This document shows positions 1-4,583 of a DNA stretch of 37,893 nucleotides, piece by piece. Origin of the DNA: Acidobacteriota bacterium (GTDB lineage Bacteria > Acidobacteriota > Terriglobia > Bryobacterales > Bryobacteraceae); NCBI GenBank assembly GCA_025354885.1, contig JANXLY010000393.1, forward strand, positions 1 through 37,893, written 5' to 3'. The stretch's first letter is position 1; every line of letters starts with the position of its first letter. Under the pieces are notes generated by a model that had not been told where the DNA came from, did no database searches, and saw only the letters and a program-made list of their open reading frames with translations. The position numbers and the translations under genes were made by a program.

Positions 1-153
1 TGGGTTAGCATCGCCGCAATATCGTGCCACGCACTTCTGAAATTCCTTACTTGGAGCATGCTCGATGAGTTGCGAGAAAATGGTGCGGCCAGCGTTCATC
101 CCTCATTGTTTCGCAAGCAAAAAGGCAATTTTGTGCCAGGGCGCAAATTTTAG
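1..153 (+). CDS. C-terminal end of an unidentified protein, cut by the window edge
   Basis: A reading frame is open from the first base and ends at a TAG at 151-153, giving about 50 residues that finish in a basic tail (FRKQKGNFVPGRKF). I do not recognise the family. It points toward the broken end of kdpA and stops just before that gene's new stop codon, so it could be the 3' end of a gene carried by whatever DNA interrupted kdpA, for example a transposase. It is short and could also be a chance open frame. Confidence 0.3.
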   Translation, partial: WVSIAAISCHALLKFLTWSMLDELRENGAASVHPSLFRKQKGNFVPGRKF

Positions 154-237
154 AATTTCAAATCGTTCCCGGCGGGATTCCCGGTATATTATTGACCTGG
201 AATGACTTGCACGTCTTCTCGAGAAAATAGCCGGACA
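1..237. mobile_element. Foreign DNA abutting truncated kdpA, possibly an insertion-element end
   Basis: KdpA similarity on the minus strand stops abruptly at about 248. The DNA beyond it is unrelated to kdpA. A CTAG (238-241) sits at the boundary, and reading away from kdpA the new DNA begins TGTCCGGCTATTTTC. Many insertion elements begin with TG and some target CTAG-like sites, but only one end is in the window, so neither a terminal inverted repeat nor a target duplication can be confirmed. A deletion or rearrangement joint would look the same. Confidence 0.3.
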
Positions 238-586
238 CTAGTGAATTCTGCCAATTCGTATTGGTAGCAAAACTTGAGGCAATATTGAAAGCCGTATGAA
301 AAGGCAACGGGGCAAGGCCCTGCGGGTTCCAGGGGTGCCACTGCTGGGTCATCAATATCCCGAGCACCGCCGAAAAGCCCAATGCGTGAAGCCACAGCCA
401 GTGGCTCGCGTACTGCTGCCAACTCTGCTCCTGCAAGGGGTTAACGCCTAAAATCCGGTATATCCAGCCGTCAAAGCGGCTGAACTTTCCTTGATAAACA
501 GCCGCCATGTAGGTACCCAGCGGCTTTACCGCCAAAAGCAGCAGGGCAAAGAAGATGCCAATCTGTATCCATGCATTTGTGCTCAT
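158..586 (-). pseudogene. kdpA: Truncated KdpA, K+-transporting ATPase channel subunit
   Basis: KdpA is the ion-channel subunit of the high-affinity Kdp potassium pump in the inner membrane and normally has about 560-590 residues. Here residues 1-113 are KdpA-like: an N-terminal membrane helix, the region around WQQYASHWLWLHALGFSAVLG, and the diagnostic NIASSFATNTNWQ just before the first selectivity loop. After TNTNWQ the frame runs through about 29 unrelated residues to a TGA, so all selectivity loops and later helices are missing. The start is the ATG at 584-586, which overlaps the kdpF stop as ATGA. The upstream frame that extends to 691 is rejected because it runs through kdpF. No kdpB or kdpC is visible. 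The product cannot be a working channel. Confidence 0.85.
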
Positions 587-666
587 GAAAACCTCTCTGG
601 TTGGATCAGGGCGATGAGCAAATAAATCAAAAGCCCGATCGAGAGGAACAATCCGATCAGTTCCAT
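583..666 (-). CDS. kdpF: KdpF small membrane subunit of the Kdp potassium pump
   Basis: This 27-residue peptide (MELIGLFLSIGLLIYLLIAL followed by IQPERFS) is a single hydrophobic helix ending in the PERF motif typical of KdpF, a lipid-like stabiliser of the KdpABC complex. The ATG is at 664-666 and the stop overlaps the kdpA start by four bases, the usual kdpFA arrangement. Its partner kdpA is truncated, so KdpF probably has no complex to join unless another kdp locus exists. The gene diverges from the kinase gene at 772, leaving about 105 bases that must hold promoters for both directions. Confidence 0.85.
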   Translation of the reverse strand: MELIGLFLSIGLLIYLLIALIQPERFS

Positions 667-771
667 GACCTGATCTTCTGCTGGAACGCATAAATGCCGA
701 ATAAAGATTTCATGGACTCTTTCGCCCTGCCAAGACGCCGTAGAGTAGTGAAATAATAGAGAAGATTTCGT

Positions 772-2460
772 ATGGACCCACAAACTCAGGAATGGCTCAG
801 TCAATTGCTGGCCTACACGGCTCAACTTGCTCCCGAAGAGCGGGAGGCTTCCGTACGCGAAGCTTGTGCAGGCCGCGAGGACCTGCTCGAAGTTGCACTG
901 CAGATGTTGCAGTCGGGACAGTCGCCAACCAAGACCATGGTGCCTAGCCGGACTTCGCAGATGATCGGCCCATACCGGGTATTACGCGAACTTGGCAAAG
1001 GCGGCATGGGCATCGTCTATCTTGCGGTTCGTGATGACGGTGCATTTCGCAAGAACGTGGCGATCAAGCTTTTACGTGGCGACGCAGTAACCGCCGAATT
1101 TGTGGAGCGTTTCCGCAACGAGCGTCAAGTGCTGGCCAACTTTGACCACCCAAACATTGCCCGCATCCTCGATGGCGGCGATACAACAGAAGGCATGCCC
1201 TTCTATGTCATGGAATACGTCGAGGGCCGTCCCATCGATCGTTATTGTGACGAAGACAAGCTCAGCCTCAACGATCGGCTCAAGCTCTTTCAAAAACTCT
1301 GTGGCGCGATCAGCTACCTGCATCAGAATCAGGTGATTCACCGCGACCTGAAGCCTGGCAACATTCTGGTCTCGACCGAAGGCATCGTCAAACTCCTCGA
1401 CTTCGGAATTGCCAAGCAACTGGGCCCTGCGAGCATGGAGCTCACAACAGCCGAGGGCACTCCGCTAACTCCCGCATATGCAAGCCCCGAACAGTTTACG
1501 GGTCGGGCAGACGCCCGCAGCGACATCTACACTCTGGGCGTGATTCTCTATCTGATGCTCACGGGTCGCCTCCCCGATCAAGGCACAATCAAACCACCAA
1601 GCGAGAGTGTGCGTGAGGATTTCCAGCGCACGCAAGAGACAACCAAGCAACTGAAAAAACGCATCATGGGGGACCTCGATCTAGTCGTGCTGAAGGCGAT
1701 GCATCGCGAGTCTCGGATGCGATACGGCACGGCGCAGGAACTTTCTGAAGATCTCGATCGCTTTCTCAGTGGGCAACCTGTGCTCGCCAGATTACGTAAT
1801 GGATTGAGTCAGAAAGCTCTCGGCCTGGCTGCTGCCGCAGTCATCGTTCTCGTCGGCGCTGGAGCGGGAGTTTACTTCCTGGAACATCGGTCAACGCCCA
1901 CACCGGAGCTACAGAAACCAGTGGAAGCACAGGGCGTACCGGCAAAGCAGGAATCGCAAACGCCGGTCCAAAGCACGCCAATCAGCGCAGCGCCTGCAAA
2001 TCCAGCGCCAGAACCGGCCCCCAAGGAGCCAACCCCAGCAGGGAGCAAACCTGTGGCTGTCACTGCCACCGTACCCGCAAAAGTACCCGCAACAGTGCAG
2101 ACAACAGTGCAGACAACAGTGCAGGCAACCAGGCCTGCAACCTTGCCTGTCGCAGTGCCCAAGTCATCGACTGTACCGCCGCCGGTAATACCGGAAGGAC
2201 TCGAAGAGGCACGTGAGAAATTTGCAAGCGTGGCAGGCCACGTAGCTGCCAGCGAACAGATGTTCGCGAGAATTAAGGCCGAGATGGAAGCAAAGGGACT
2301 TTCGATTCGTGCCGACACGCTCTCTCGCGTAACATCAATGAAGCTGAATCTTGAGCAGGCGAAACTCGATCTCGACCGGATGAATGTGGCTGGAGCCATC
2401 AAAAACATGAACGCGGCTGAAGCTCAGGCAGCTCGCGTCAACAAGGAATTTGGCAGATAG
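772..2460 (+). CDS. Transmembrane Ser/Thr protein kinase
   Basis: This 562-residue Hanks-type kinase has its catalytic domain at about residues 67-335. Visible motifs are the glycine loop GKGGMG (75-80), the ATP-binding lysine in VAIK (K99), the catalytic loop HRDLKPGN (190-197, D192), DFG (210-212) and the SPEQ element near 238. One membrane helix (about 349-370) follows, then a Pro/Ala/Thr-rich linker, then a helical domain (about 480-562) on the far side of the membrane. That last domain aligns without gaps to the end of the protein encoded at 3822-4583, with about 27 of 81 residues identical. The gene is first of three in the same direction (28 bases to the next). Inference: the outer domain senses an envelope signal, with the two downstream secreted proteins as partners or ligands. 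Kinase identity is certain; the signal is unknown. Confidence 0.95.
   Translation: MDPQTQEWLSQLLAYTAQLAPEEREASVREACAGREDLLEVALQMLQSGQSPTKTMVPSRTSQMIGPYRVLRELGKGGMGIVYLAVRDDGAFRKNVAIKLLRGDAVTAEFVERFRNERQVLANFDHPNIARILDGGDTTEGMPFYVMEYVEGRPIDRYCDEDKLSLNDRLKLFQKLCGAISYLHQNQVIHRDLKPGNILVSTEGIVKLLDFGIAKQLGPASMELTTAEGTPLTPAYASPEQFTGRADARSDIYTLGVILYLMLTGRLPDQGTIKPPSESVREDFQRTQETTKQLKKRIMGDLDLVVLKAMHRESRMRYGTAQELSEDLDRFLSGQPVLARLRNGLSQKALGLAAAAVIVLVGAGAGVYFLEHRSTPTPELQKPVEAQGVPAKQESQTPVQSTPISAAPANPAPEPAPKEPTPAGSKPVAVTATVPAKVPATVQTTVQTTVQATRPATLPVAVPKSSTVPPPVIPEGLEEAREKFASVAGHVAASEQMFARIKAEMEAKGLSIRADTLSRVTSMKLNLEQAKLDLDRMNVAGAIKNMNAAEAQAARVNKEFGR
2091..2126 (+). repeat. Three tandem 12-bp repeats in the kinase linker
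   Basis: The unit AACAGTGCAGAC occurs three times in a row; the third copy has one mismatch. It encodes the repeated TVQT tract of the low-complexity linker after the kinase membrane helix. The whole-codon unit means copy-number change by slippage would lengthen or shorten the linker without breaking the frame. Confidence 0.85.
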
Positions 2461-2488
2461 TGATATATGAGCAAGAGGAGTTTGTAAA

Positions 2489-3844
2489 ATGCGTTCTCAA
2501 TTAGCCCTGATTCTGGTACTCAGCGTGATTTCGCTGAGTGCTCAAACGCCGACTGTGCCAGCGGTTCCGCCGGCGGCGAAAACTTCAGCCCCCCAGTCTG
2601 CAGTAAAGACGGCCGCCGCAGTCAAGACTGTAGCGAAACCGGTCCAAAGTCAGTTGGGAAAGATCATTCAGATGATCGAGTTGAAACTGCCGGAGGCCGC
2701 TGTACTCAATGCGATCAAAGGGGCTGGCAAATTGAATCCAAGCCCGGACGACTATATTCGCCTGAAGCAGGCTGGCGCAAGTGATGCAGTGTTTGCAGCC
2801 CTCAGCGGCTCGCCATCGCCATCGCCCGCCGCATCTGCCGTAGCGGCCAAGCTGCCGGCGAGAATAGTTGAGAGCAGCATAAATACCGACTTTTCCACGT
2901 TGGCCTGTACGAAACCCAGCTCGTCGGCCAAGCGCGTAATCGCCATCGACGAGTTCGACTTTGGCACCGTGCGCACCGCAGTTGCAGCAATCTTCGGCAC
3001 CCAAGTGGATGTCGGCAAAGGAATCCTGGCGCTCTTGACCAAGCGTCTTGCCGAAGACGGCAAGTACAGGATCGTCGAACGCAAGAACCTCCAGAAGGTT
3101 CTCTCCGAGCAGGACCTTGGAGCGTCGAACCGGGTGAAGCAGGGCACAAATGCCAAGATCGGCCGCGTGCAAGGCGCCGACGCAATCCTGATGGGAACCA
3201 TCACCGTCTTCGGCAATGACACCCGCAGCAACAGCGTCAACACGGGAGCCGTAACACGCGGAAAACTTGGCGGCATCCTTGGCAACGTCAATGTCGGCGG
3301 CCGATCGGACAAAGCGATCGTCGAAATCAGCTATCGGTTGATCGACGCGGAATCCAGCGAAGTAATCGCCGTGGGCGAAGCACGAGGAGAATCGAAACGT
3401 AAATCGAGCGGTATTGGTCTTGCCGGATACGGTAATGGCAGCGGGGGAAATCTTGGGGTGAACATGTCGAGCTCGAATTTCCTTGAGACCGTGATCGGTG
3501 AGGCCACTGTCGATTCCGTGACGAAGTTGGCAGCCATTGCAAACTCCAAGGAACAGAGCATCGCCCGCCGAACCTCAGAGGTTGAAGCAAAGATTGCCGA
3601 GATCGCCGGCAACAAGGTTTATCTTGCCGCCGGATCCAACGACGGCGTACAGCAATGCGACCGTTTTGAAATTTCACGAGTGATCAAGGAAATCAAAGAC
3701 CCTTCGACCGGAGAAGTGCTCGACCTGCAAATTGAAAAGGTAGGAGAGCTGATGGTAATGGAAGTAAGAGACAAAATCTCGATTGCTTATTTCAATGGAT
3801 CGTCCAACCCGAAGGTGGGTTATGTTGCCAAGAAAATCAATTAA
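2489..3844 (+). CDS. Secreted CsgG-like protein
   Basis: A 451-residue exported protein. Residues 1-18 form a signal peptide, followed by an Ala/Lys/Pro-rich stretch. Residues about 58-107 (ending LKQAGASDAVFAAL) resemble a short helical motif seen in many acidobacterial secreted proteins. Residues about 148-345 match the CsgG family: VIAIDEFDFGTV, then LLTKRLAEDGKYRIVERKNLQKVLSEQ, then GADAILMGTITVFG. The last 85 residues (AEIAGNKVYLAAGSNDGVQQ) resemble the C-terminal domain of flagellar FlgT. CsgG proteins of curli systems form outer-membrane pores, but no curlin genes are nearby, so a pore role is not implied. A clear GAGGAG ribosome site precedes the ATG. The 3' end overlaps the next gene by 23 bases, indicating one operon with the upstream kinase. 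Confidence 0.85.
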   Translation: MRSQLALILVLSVISLSAQTPTVPAVPPAAKTSAPQSAVKTAAAVKTVAKPVQSQLGKIIQMIELKLPEAAVLNAIKGAGKLNPSPDDYIRLKQAGASDAVFAALSGSPSPSPAASAVAAKLPARIVESSINTDFSTLACTKPSSSAKRVIAIDEFDFGTVRTAVAAIFGTQVDVGKGILALLTKRLAEDGKYRIVERKNLQKVLSEQDLGASNRVKQGTNAKIGRVQGADAILMGTITVFGNDTRSNSVNTGAVTRGKLGGILGNVNVGGRSDKAIVEISYRLIDAESSEVIAVGEARGESKRKSSGIGLAGYGNGSGGNLGVNMSSSNFLETVIGEATVDSVTKLAAIANSKEQSIARRTSEVEAKIAEIAGNKVYLAAGSNDGVQQCDRFEISRVIKEIKDPSTGEVLDLQIEKVGELMVMEVRDKISIAYFNGSSNPKVGYVAKKIN

Positions 3845-4583
3845 TATCTTTGCCTTTGCGGCGCTGCTTTGTGCCCAGACCGGCAGCCTCGATTCGATGC
3901 TGACCCAATTTGAGGGCCAACTCGCGAAAGGCCAACCCAGCCCCGAGCAGTTGCAGCATAACCTCAACTCGCTGTCAAGCGGGCTCCGTCAGGGCAACTG
4001 GTCCAATCCGAATCAGCGCATTCCCGTTACCAGTCGGGCTGTTGGCTATCTCAACAATGTACAAGGCGTAGCTGGCCGCGACAGAAATCTCGGAATTTCT
4101 ATGTCCGGAATCTACCGTCAGATTGGAGGCCTTGAGACCAACCCCCAAAGCGCGTGGCTGAACTACCGTAACGCCTATCTGATGCTGAACCATTTTCCGG
4201 TTGACAGTCAGATTCGCACCGAGATGCAGCAAATCCGCCGCAGCGTCGAAGTGATCGAAGCCCGAATGCCCGAGCTCCCTAAGCTCGACTGGTCCAGCCT
4301 CGACGCGGCTGGGCAAAAGGAATACGACTCCGTAATGGAGCGCTACATCAGCGTCAGCTCAGCTGCAAGTTCGGCGGAAGTAACTGCTGAAACCATGCGT
4401 CGCTCCATGGCCGATCAGGGGCTGGCAGTGCGACCGGAAATTGTCAGCGGATTGACGCGTATGAAATTGAAGCTCGAAGACGCAAAGCGCCTGATCGAGC
4501 AAAAGAATTATGCGATCGCCAAAGACAGGTTGGCCTCGGCAGAAGCCGAGGCCCAAAAGATCCTGAAGTTGTTTGGTGGTTAG
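3822..4583 (+). CDS. Secreted helical protein sharing a domain with the upstream kinase
   Basis: This 253-residue protein starts at the ATG at 3822, preceded by an AAGGTGG-type ribosome site inside the previous gene. That start yields a good signal peptide (MLPRKSINIFAFAALLCAQ); the longer frame from 3783 does not. The rest is predicted mostly helical. The last 81 residues align without gaps to the outer C-terminal domain of the kinase at 772-2460, sharing the core MKLxLExAK and the terminal FG. I do not recognise a named family. Gene order suggests co-expression with the kinase and the CsgG-like protein; a role as ligand, decoy or partner of the kinase sensor domain is inference only. It converges on rpoD with only three bases between the stop codons. 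Confidence 0.8.
   Translation: MLPRKSINIFAFAALLCAQTGSLDSMLTQFEGQLAKGQPSPEQLQHNLNSLSSGLRQGNWSNPNQRIPVTSRAVGYLNNVQGVAGRDRNLGISMSGIYRQIGGLETNPQSAWLNYRNAYLMLNHFPVDSQIRTEMQQIRRSVEVIEARMPELPKLDWSSLDAAGQKEYDSVMERYISVSSAASSAEVTAETMRRSMADQGLAVRPEIVSGLTRMKLKLEDAKRLIEQKNYAIAKDRLASAEAEAQKILKLFGG

Follow-up and report, generated by a model that had tools for sequence, protein, structure and literature searches.

Across the class Terriglobia, a small helical domain that forms the extracytoplasmic tail of a Hanks-type Ser/Thr kinase is encoded almost exclusively in genomes that have a secreted CsgG-like protein, and by gene content it is this tail, rather than the kinase, that keeps to the CsgG-like protein. 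We would put even weight for and against the view that the tail docks on the CsgG-like protein in the periplasm, in which case a linker would span the periplasm, the state of docking would set kinase activity, and a free secreted protein with its own copy of the tail (P3) would tune it. Two of the parts are known ones, the Hanks kinase and the CsgG domain. The three-gene layout considered here represents, in a single lineage, a variant of a more widespread unit of two genes, one for a CsgG-like protein and one for a tail-bearing protein. It lies in the window (the whole 37,893-nucleotide stretch of acidobacterial DNA that was analysed) at positions 772-4583, where a sequence-only reading had correctly placed a kinase, a CsgG-like protein and a secreted protein:

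772-2460, + strand: Hanks-type Ser/Thr kinase (562 aa), with a cytoplasmic kinase domain, one membrane helix, a Pro-rich linker and the tail domain
1804-1860, + strand: kinase transmembrane helix, residues about 345-363 (hydropathy scan)
1879-2199, + strand: Pro-rich extracytoplasmic linker of the kinase, ~106 residues, 22% Pro, weakly conserved
2200-2457, + strand: tail domain of the kinase, residues 477-562
2489-3844, + strand: CsgG-like periplasmic protein (451 aa) with an SPase I-type signal; small N-terminal helical domain (~55-105), CsgG domain (143-348) and a C-terminal domain resembling TsaP/FlgT_C
3822-4583, + strand: free secreted protein P3 (253 aa) with a signal peptide; TPR-like helical domain (~23-150) and tail domain (~165-252)
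4314-4580, + strand: tail domain of P3, three helices in the structure model (165-198, 205-226, 230-252)

The mechanical open reading frame of P3 begins at a TTG at 3783; relatives back an ATG start at 3822, which gives P3 an overlap of 23 nt with the CsgG gene, and the genes overlap alike in the relatives L003 and L037. The kinase, the CsgG-like gene and P3 occur together in every relative of the genus that has a complete locus, so the expectation, on which the sequence-only reading had staked itself, that relatives retain the three genes jointly is borne out there. Within the genus the order of P3 is conserved, and its start overlaps the csgG stop in the relatives checked. Two relatives encode a further kinase, with a TPR-like ectodomain and no tail, a few kb upstream of the cluster (L037:256-2424 and L039:14021-16204).

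The kinase matches Pfam Pkinase (E=6.3e-42), and K99, HRD (190-192) and DFG (210-212) are invariant in relatives (alignment A2), as in Hanks-type kinases. A hydropathy scan finds one membrane helix, at about residues 345-363 and C-terminal to the kinase domain, which places the tail outside the membrane as originally proposed. Like the PASTA kinases PknB and StkP, the protein combines a cytoplasmic Hanks kinase, a single membrane helix and an extracytoplasmic C-terminal part, but Pfam detects no PASTA domain in it, and its C-terminus is an unnamed helical tail preceded by a long Pro-rich linker. Its score against the PASTA-kinase model NF033483 is 244.6 bits, below the cut-off of 450, and the match is confined to residues 67-340. 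PADLOC matches to PD-T4-6 and other anti-phage kinase systems are driven by the kinase region alone, while the CsgG-like protein and P3 match nothing in PADLOC; a defence-system reading was not favoured. The window comes from a genome of Bryobacteraceae type (class Terriglobia, Acidobacteriota), and the closest loci that carry a name are those of Bryobacter and Bryobacteraceae. This 6.6-Mb genome has 43 Pkinase matches at E≤1e-15, and the only tail-bearing kinase among them is the neighbour of the genome's one strong CsgG gene.

The last 81 residues of the kinase and of P3 align without gaps with exactly 27 identities (about 27 had been estimated), against 6.7±2.4 and a maximum of 20 in 20,000 shuffles. 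The similarity extends over about 85-89 residues, longer than the 81 reported earlier, and BLASTP aligns the two tails at E=2e-8. When the kinase tail was searched against the whole genome, it matched only itself and P3, with no third copy. A profile of kinase tails from outside the genus finds the window's P3 at E=4.5e-19 (best unrelated open reading frame among the 1261 compared, E=0.15; best of 4000 shuffles, 0.028), and the reverse profile, built from free tails of other genera, finds the window's kinase at 1.8e-15. The shuffles and the specificity of the profiles rule out generic helical composition as the source of the similarity. Shuffles, BLASTP and cross-genus profiles thus agree with the sequence-only reading that one homologous domain serves as the ectodomain of the kinase and recurs in a free protein, and the profile comparison it had proposed gives a significant link between the tails beyond generic helical composition.

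Using a profile built from 31 tails (A1), we found the tail in 88 of 299 sampled Terriglobia genomes, spread across the class, and most genomes have a single tail gene. Whole or partial matches to P3 were present in 94 of 257 genomes of the order to which the window's organism belongs. In a phylum-wide sample of Acidobacteriota, 12 of 396 genomes match the tail, mostly Terriglobia; convincing matches outside this class number two (G724 and G692). The tail has no model in Pfam or NCBIfam. A Pfam scan of the 31 tails gave scattered weak matches, none common to more than eight members (best listed E 1.7e-4), and a profile search of the PDB gave nothing convincing (best E 0.0072). Based on the PDB result and the inconsistent Pfam matches, identity with a known domain was rejected. 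The near-invariant positions of the tail are Gly and Ala, and conserved polar residues are few. Both copies are under purifying selection, with dN/dS of about 0.08-0.09 (kinase tail 0.075, P3 tail 0.09), values that are rough because synonymous sites are near saturation.

The CsgG-like gene and the tail are strongly associated. A strong CsgG gene is present in 83 of the 88 sampled tail-bearing genomes, and 190 of the 299 genomes have neither (Fisher p=4.7e-47, a value that ignores the relatedness of the genomes). The two lie within 6 kb of each other in 64 genomes, usually as adjacent genes, with median intergenic gaps of 15 bp where the kinase precedes CsgG and 21 bp where CsgG precedes the kinase. 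In the family of the window's organism, every one of the 45 tail-bearing genomes has CsgG, which lies within 6 kb of the tail in 42, and no genome is discordant. In 19 genomes both are present and unlinked or on other contigs, and five genomes have a tail and no CsgG match, some of these assemblies being incomplete. Conversely, 21 sampled genomes carry a CsgG-like gene with no detected tail, and in the readable neighbourhoods no kinase adjoins it, which indicates that the CsgG-like protein has a function of its own.

Two forms of the locus were recognised. In form 1, which includes the window, the CsgG-like protein has the extra N-terminal helical domain, the kinases have an N-terminal extension, and free tail proteins occur. 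In form 2, a shorter CsgG gene lies mostly upstream of a shorter kinase. The tail tree splits broadly by these forms (90/98), although the tree is based on few columns and its deeper forks are unsure. Within the window's genus, the kinase tails form one clade (99/99) and the free tails another (100/98), which means that both copies predate the genus and have been kept in parallel.

Tail and CsgG-like protein also diverge together. For 45 CsgG-kinase pairs, distances between tails track those between CsgG-like proteins (r 0.82) more closely than those between kinase domains (0.69). With GyrB distances as the species control, the partial correlation between tail and CsgG across 30 form-2 loci is 0.555 given GyrB and the kinase domain (p≤0.0005, permutation), compared with 0.087 (p=0.25) between the tail and the kinase domain of the same polypeptide given GyrB and CsgG. 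When genomes are left out one at a time, the tail-CsgG correlation given GyrB stays at 0.53-0.61. This is evidence for a functional pairing between the tail and the CsgG-like protein, short of proof of contact; correlated distances can also reflect joint inheritance without contact. The CsgG-like protein had been offered as a partner only with a "perhaps", and gene linkage, co-occurrence and correlated evolution together make the link likely and, of the points in the sequence-only reading, the one with the strongest support.

Beside CsgG, the tail is also found on other types of protein. It is carried by a secreted caspase-like protein (L092:5649-7792; Peptidase_C14 E=1.5e-41) and by kinase-cyclase proteins (L097 and L102, and L099 by similarity to L097). 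Directly after CsgG, L111:7415-8155 encodes a membrane anchor, a linker and the tail with no recognised cytoplasmic domain.

Several further observations concern these proteins. The L111 protein resembles the tether alone. The L092 caspase-like gene directly follows the CsgG-like gene, and no kinase of the tail family was seen there. L091:2842-3987 encodes another secreted caspase-like protein (Peptidase_C14) with a C-terminal tail domain. In the same clusters, L055:11330-12172 and L056:12031-12882 encode proteins that are predicted to have four membrane helices and whose tail domain is divergent; the L056 protein has no Pfam match.

Across 60 proteins that lack the TPR-like part, the linker between membrane helix and tail is 72-166 residues long (median 119, 5-95% 87-147) and 20% Pro. 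In extended form, about 119 residues would be longer than a periplasm is wide. In the window's genus, dN/dS is about 0.6 for the linker, compared with 0.035 for the kinase domain and 0.075 for the tail, estimates that share the roughness noted above. By its constant length, its composition and its fast evolution, the linker has the pattern of a tether and is predicted to be long enough to cross the periplasm. TonB-type proteins have a similar layout, with an inner-membrane anchor, a long Pro-rich linker, a small C-terminal domain and a putative envelope partner, but here the tail is helical and the cytoplasmic output is a kinase; the analogy is one of layout and no homology is claimed.

The CsgG-like protein matches Pfam CsgG (PF03783) at E=2.6e-27 (96 bits; cut-off 20.8) and FlgT_C weakly. 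Its family profile finds E. coli CsgG (1.3e-3) and TsaP (2.1e-8) in the PDB. The CsgG-like proteins carry signal peptides and are thus extracytoplasmic, and nearly all lack a lipobox. The lipobox Cys is absent from the window protein and its close relatives, which have SPase I-like signals instead; the four lipobox-pattern matches elsewhere in the family are scattered and not conserved. Gly-rich segments occupy the places expected for the two transmembrane hairpins that each subunit of the nonameric CsgG pore has, but the structure model (pLDDT 41, from three close sequences) is of low confidence. The protein resembles the curli channel CsgG of Escherichia coli in its secretion and in its CsgG domain, recognised by Pfam and by profile match to solved structures. 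It differs in the missing lipobox, the extra C-terminal TsaP/FlgT-like domain and the neighbouring kinase, and without a lipid anchor it may not form an outer-membrane pore. TsaP and FlgT_C are parts of envelope rings. In its C-terminal domain the CsgG-like protein is similar to TsaP (E=2.1e-8) and, weakly, to FlgT_C, but no flagellar, pilus or LysM part was detected in it and its gene neighbourhood is a different one.

P3 has no Pfam or NCBIfam match at E≤1, and its helical repeats match no Pfam TPR motif. Its N-terminal helical domain is also common to other kinases of the tail family. Residues 18-151 match a 749-aa kinase frame of G149 at 7.9e-8, followed co-linearly by the tail (2.1e-4), and profiles find the same arrangement of TPR-like part and tail in L047, L054, L055, L056, L063, L084, L087 and L095. 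Based on these co-linear matches, P3 is the counterpart of the whole ectodomain (TPR-like part and tail) of the longer kinases. Its AlphaFold model (mean pLDDT 80), made like the other from a shallow alignment, is all helical with an alpha-alpha repeat before the tail. Foldseek found no match to the model at E≤0.001. With VIA-align, designed helical repeats rank first for the N-terminal part (Z 11.4, 138 residues, rmsd 3.7), a match that would indicate only an alpha-alpha repeat, which is a common arrangement. The dN/dS of P3 is 0.15, again a rough value, and similar free proteins occur in other genera (g22 and g62).

From these comparisons we infer a model that includes physical binding, a ring, an outer-membrane location, kinase regulation and a role for P3. 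The kinase would sit in the inner membrane, its Pro-rich linker would span the periplasm, and its tail would engage the CsgG-like protein. That protein probably assembles, as a ring or otherwise, close to the outer membrane, and whether the assembly is present, absent or occupied would set the clustering and activity of the kinase. P3 could act as a soluble second ligand, its docking tail behind a TPR-like adaptor occupying or bridging the same sites and so tuning or reporting the signal. A precedent is the E. coli pair QseG-QseE, where a sensor kinase has its state controlled by a periplasmic protein that interacts with its periplasmic part (PMC6075780). The likeness is that of a periplasmic partner to a sensor kinase; QseE, however, is a two-component histidine kinase, and neither a CsgG domain nor a common tail domain is described for the pair (PMC6075780).

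Two other readings of the tail were weighed against docking. The tail, together with the TPR-like part where there is one, could be a sensor of some ligand in the periplasm, for example a fragment of the cell wall or an exported product, with no direct CsgG contact; the CsgG-like protein would then belong to an export or envelope machinery regulated by the kinase. Linkage and co-occurrence fit any shared pathway, and single-pass kinases with extracytoplasmic sensor domains are common (PASTA kinases). We nevertheless regard this as unlikely, since a small bundle of helices in which few polar residues are conserved and Gly and Ala are near-invariant is unlike a ligand pocket, the tail also occurs on proteins that are secreted and soluble, in which sensing would have no output of its own, and the correlated divergence points to protein-protein contact. 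The tail could instead be a dimerisation or oligomerisation module that activates the kinase, with P3 as competitor or cross-linker and CsgG merely a co-regulated neighbour. The long helices of the tail model fit this, as does the retention of two adjacent tail copies in the window's genus, where each group forms a clade of its own. However, most genomes have one tail gene, and self-association leaves unexplained the dependence on CsgG (83 of 88 genomes), the joint divergence of tail and CsgG, and the caspase and anchor-only versions beside CsgG; we consider it quite unlikely.

A separate alternative concerns P3, which could be an evolutionary leftover, a kinase ectodomain severed by gene duplication and functionless alone. 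It does correspond to the full ectodomain of long kinases in the same family. Against this, P3 is kept in all genus relatives with a complete locus, in unchanged order and overlapping csgG where checked, the low dN/dS values (0.15 for P3, 0.09 for its tail) indicate constraint, and comparable free proteins are retained in other genera (g22, g62). A mere remnant is thus very improbable.

The docking reading can be extended, tentatively and with less confidence than docking itself, to a trans-envelope signalling hub that uses a single docking domain to connect exchangeable outputs (kinase, kinase-cyclase, caspase-like protease, TPR-like adaptor) with a CsgG-like ring. If so, Acidobacteria would use a tether that crosses the periplasm to read directly what state an envelope assembly is in. 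These bacteria are abundant in soil and rich in Ser/Thr kinases, and the tail points to a concrete candidate partner for one sub-family of these kinases, in a unit that is conserved across the class Terriglobia. The large group of CsgG-like proteins without a lipid anchor would also gain a role, and the unnamed tail domain can now be annotated with a defined profile. In the open-access literature (full text), we found no description of the tail domain, its coupling to CsgG or the exchange of outputs, and searches for CsgG with Ser/Thr kinases or in Acidobacteria returned no account of a tail-CsgG system.

At the start of the window (1-691, - strand) there is a KdpA frame preceded by a KdpF-like open reading frame. 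The similarity to KdpA seems to end some 150 residues in, close to position 240; the + strand there has the sequence CACTAGTGAATTC, which contains SpeI and EcoRI sites in tandem, as in cloning vectors. Judged by eye, this is possibly a broken KdpA gene or a chimeric contig start.
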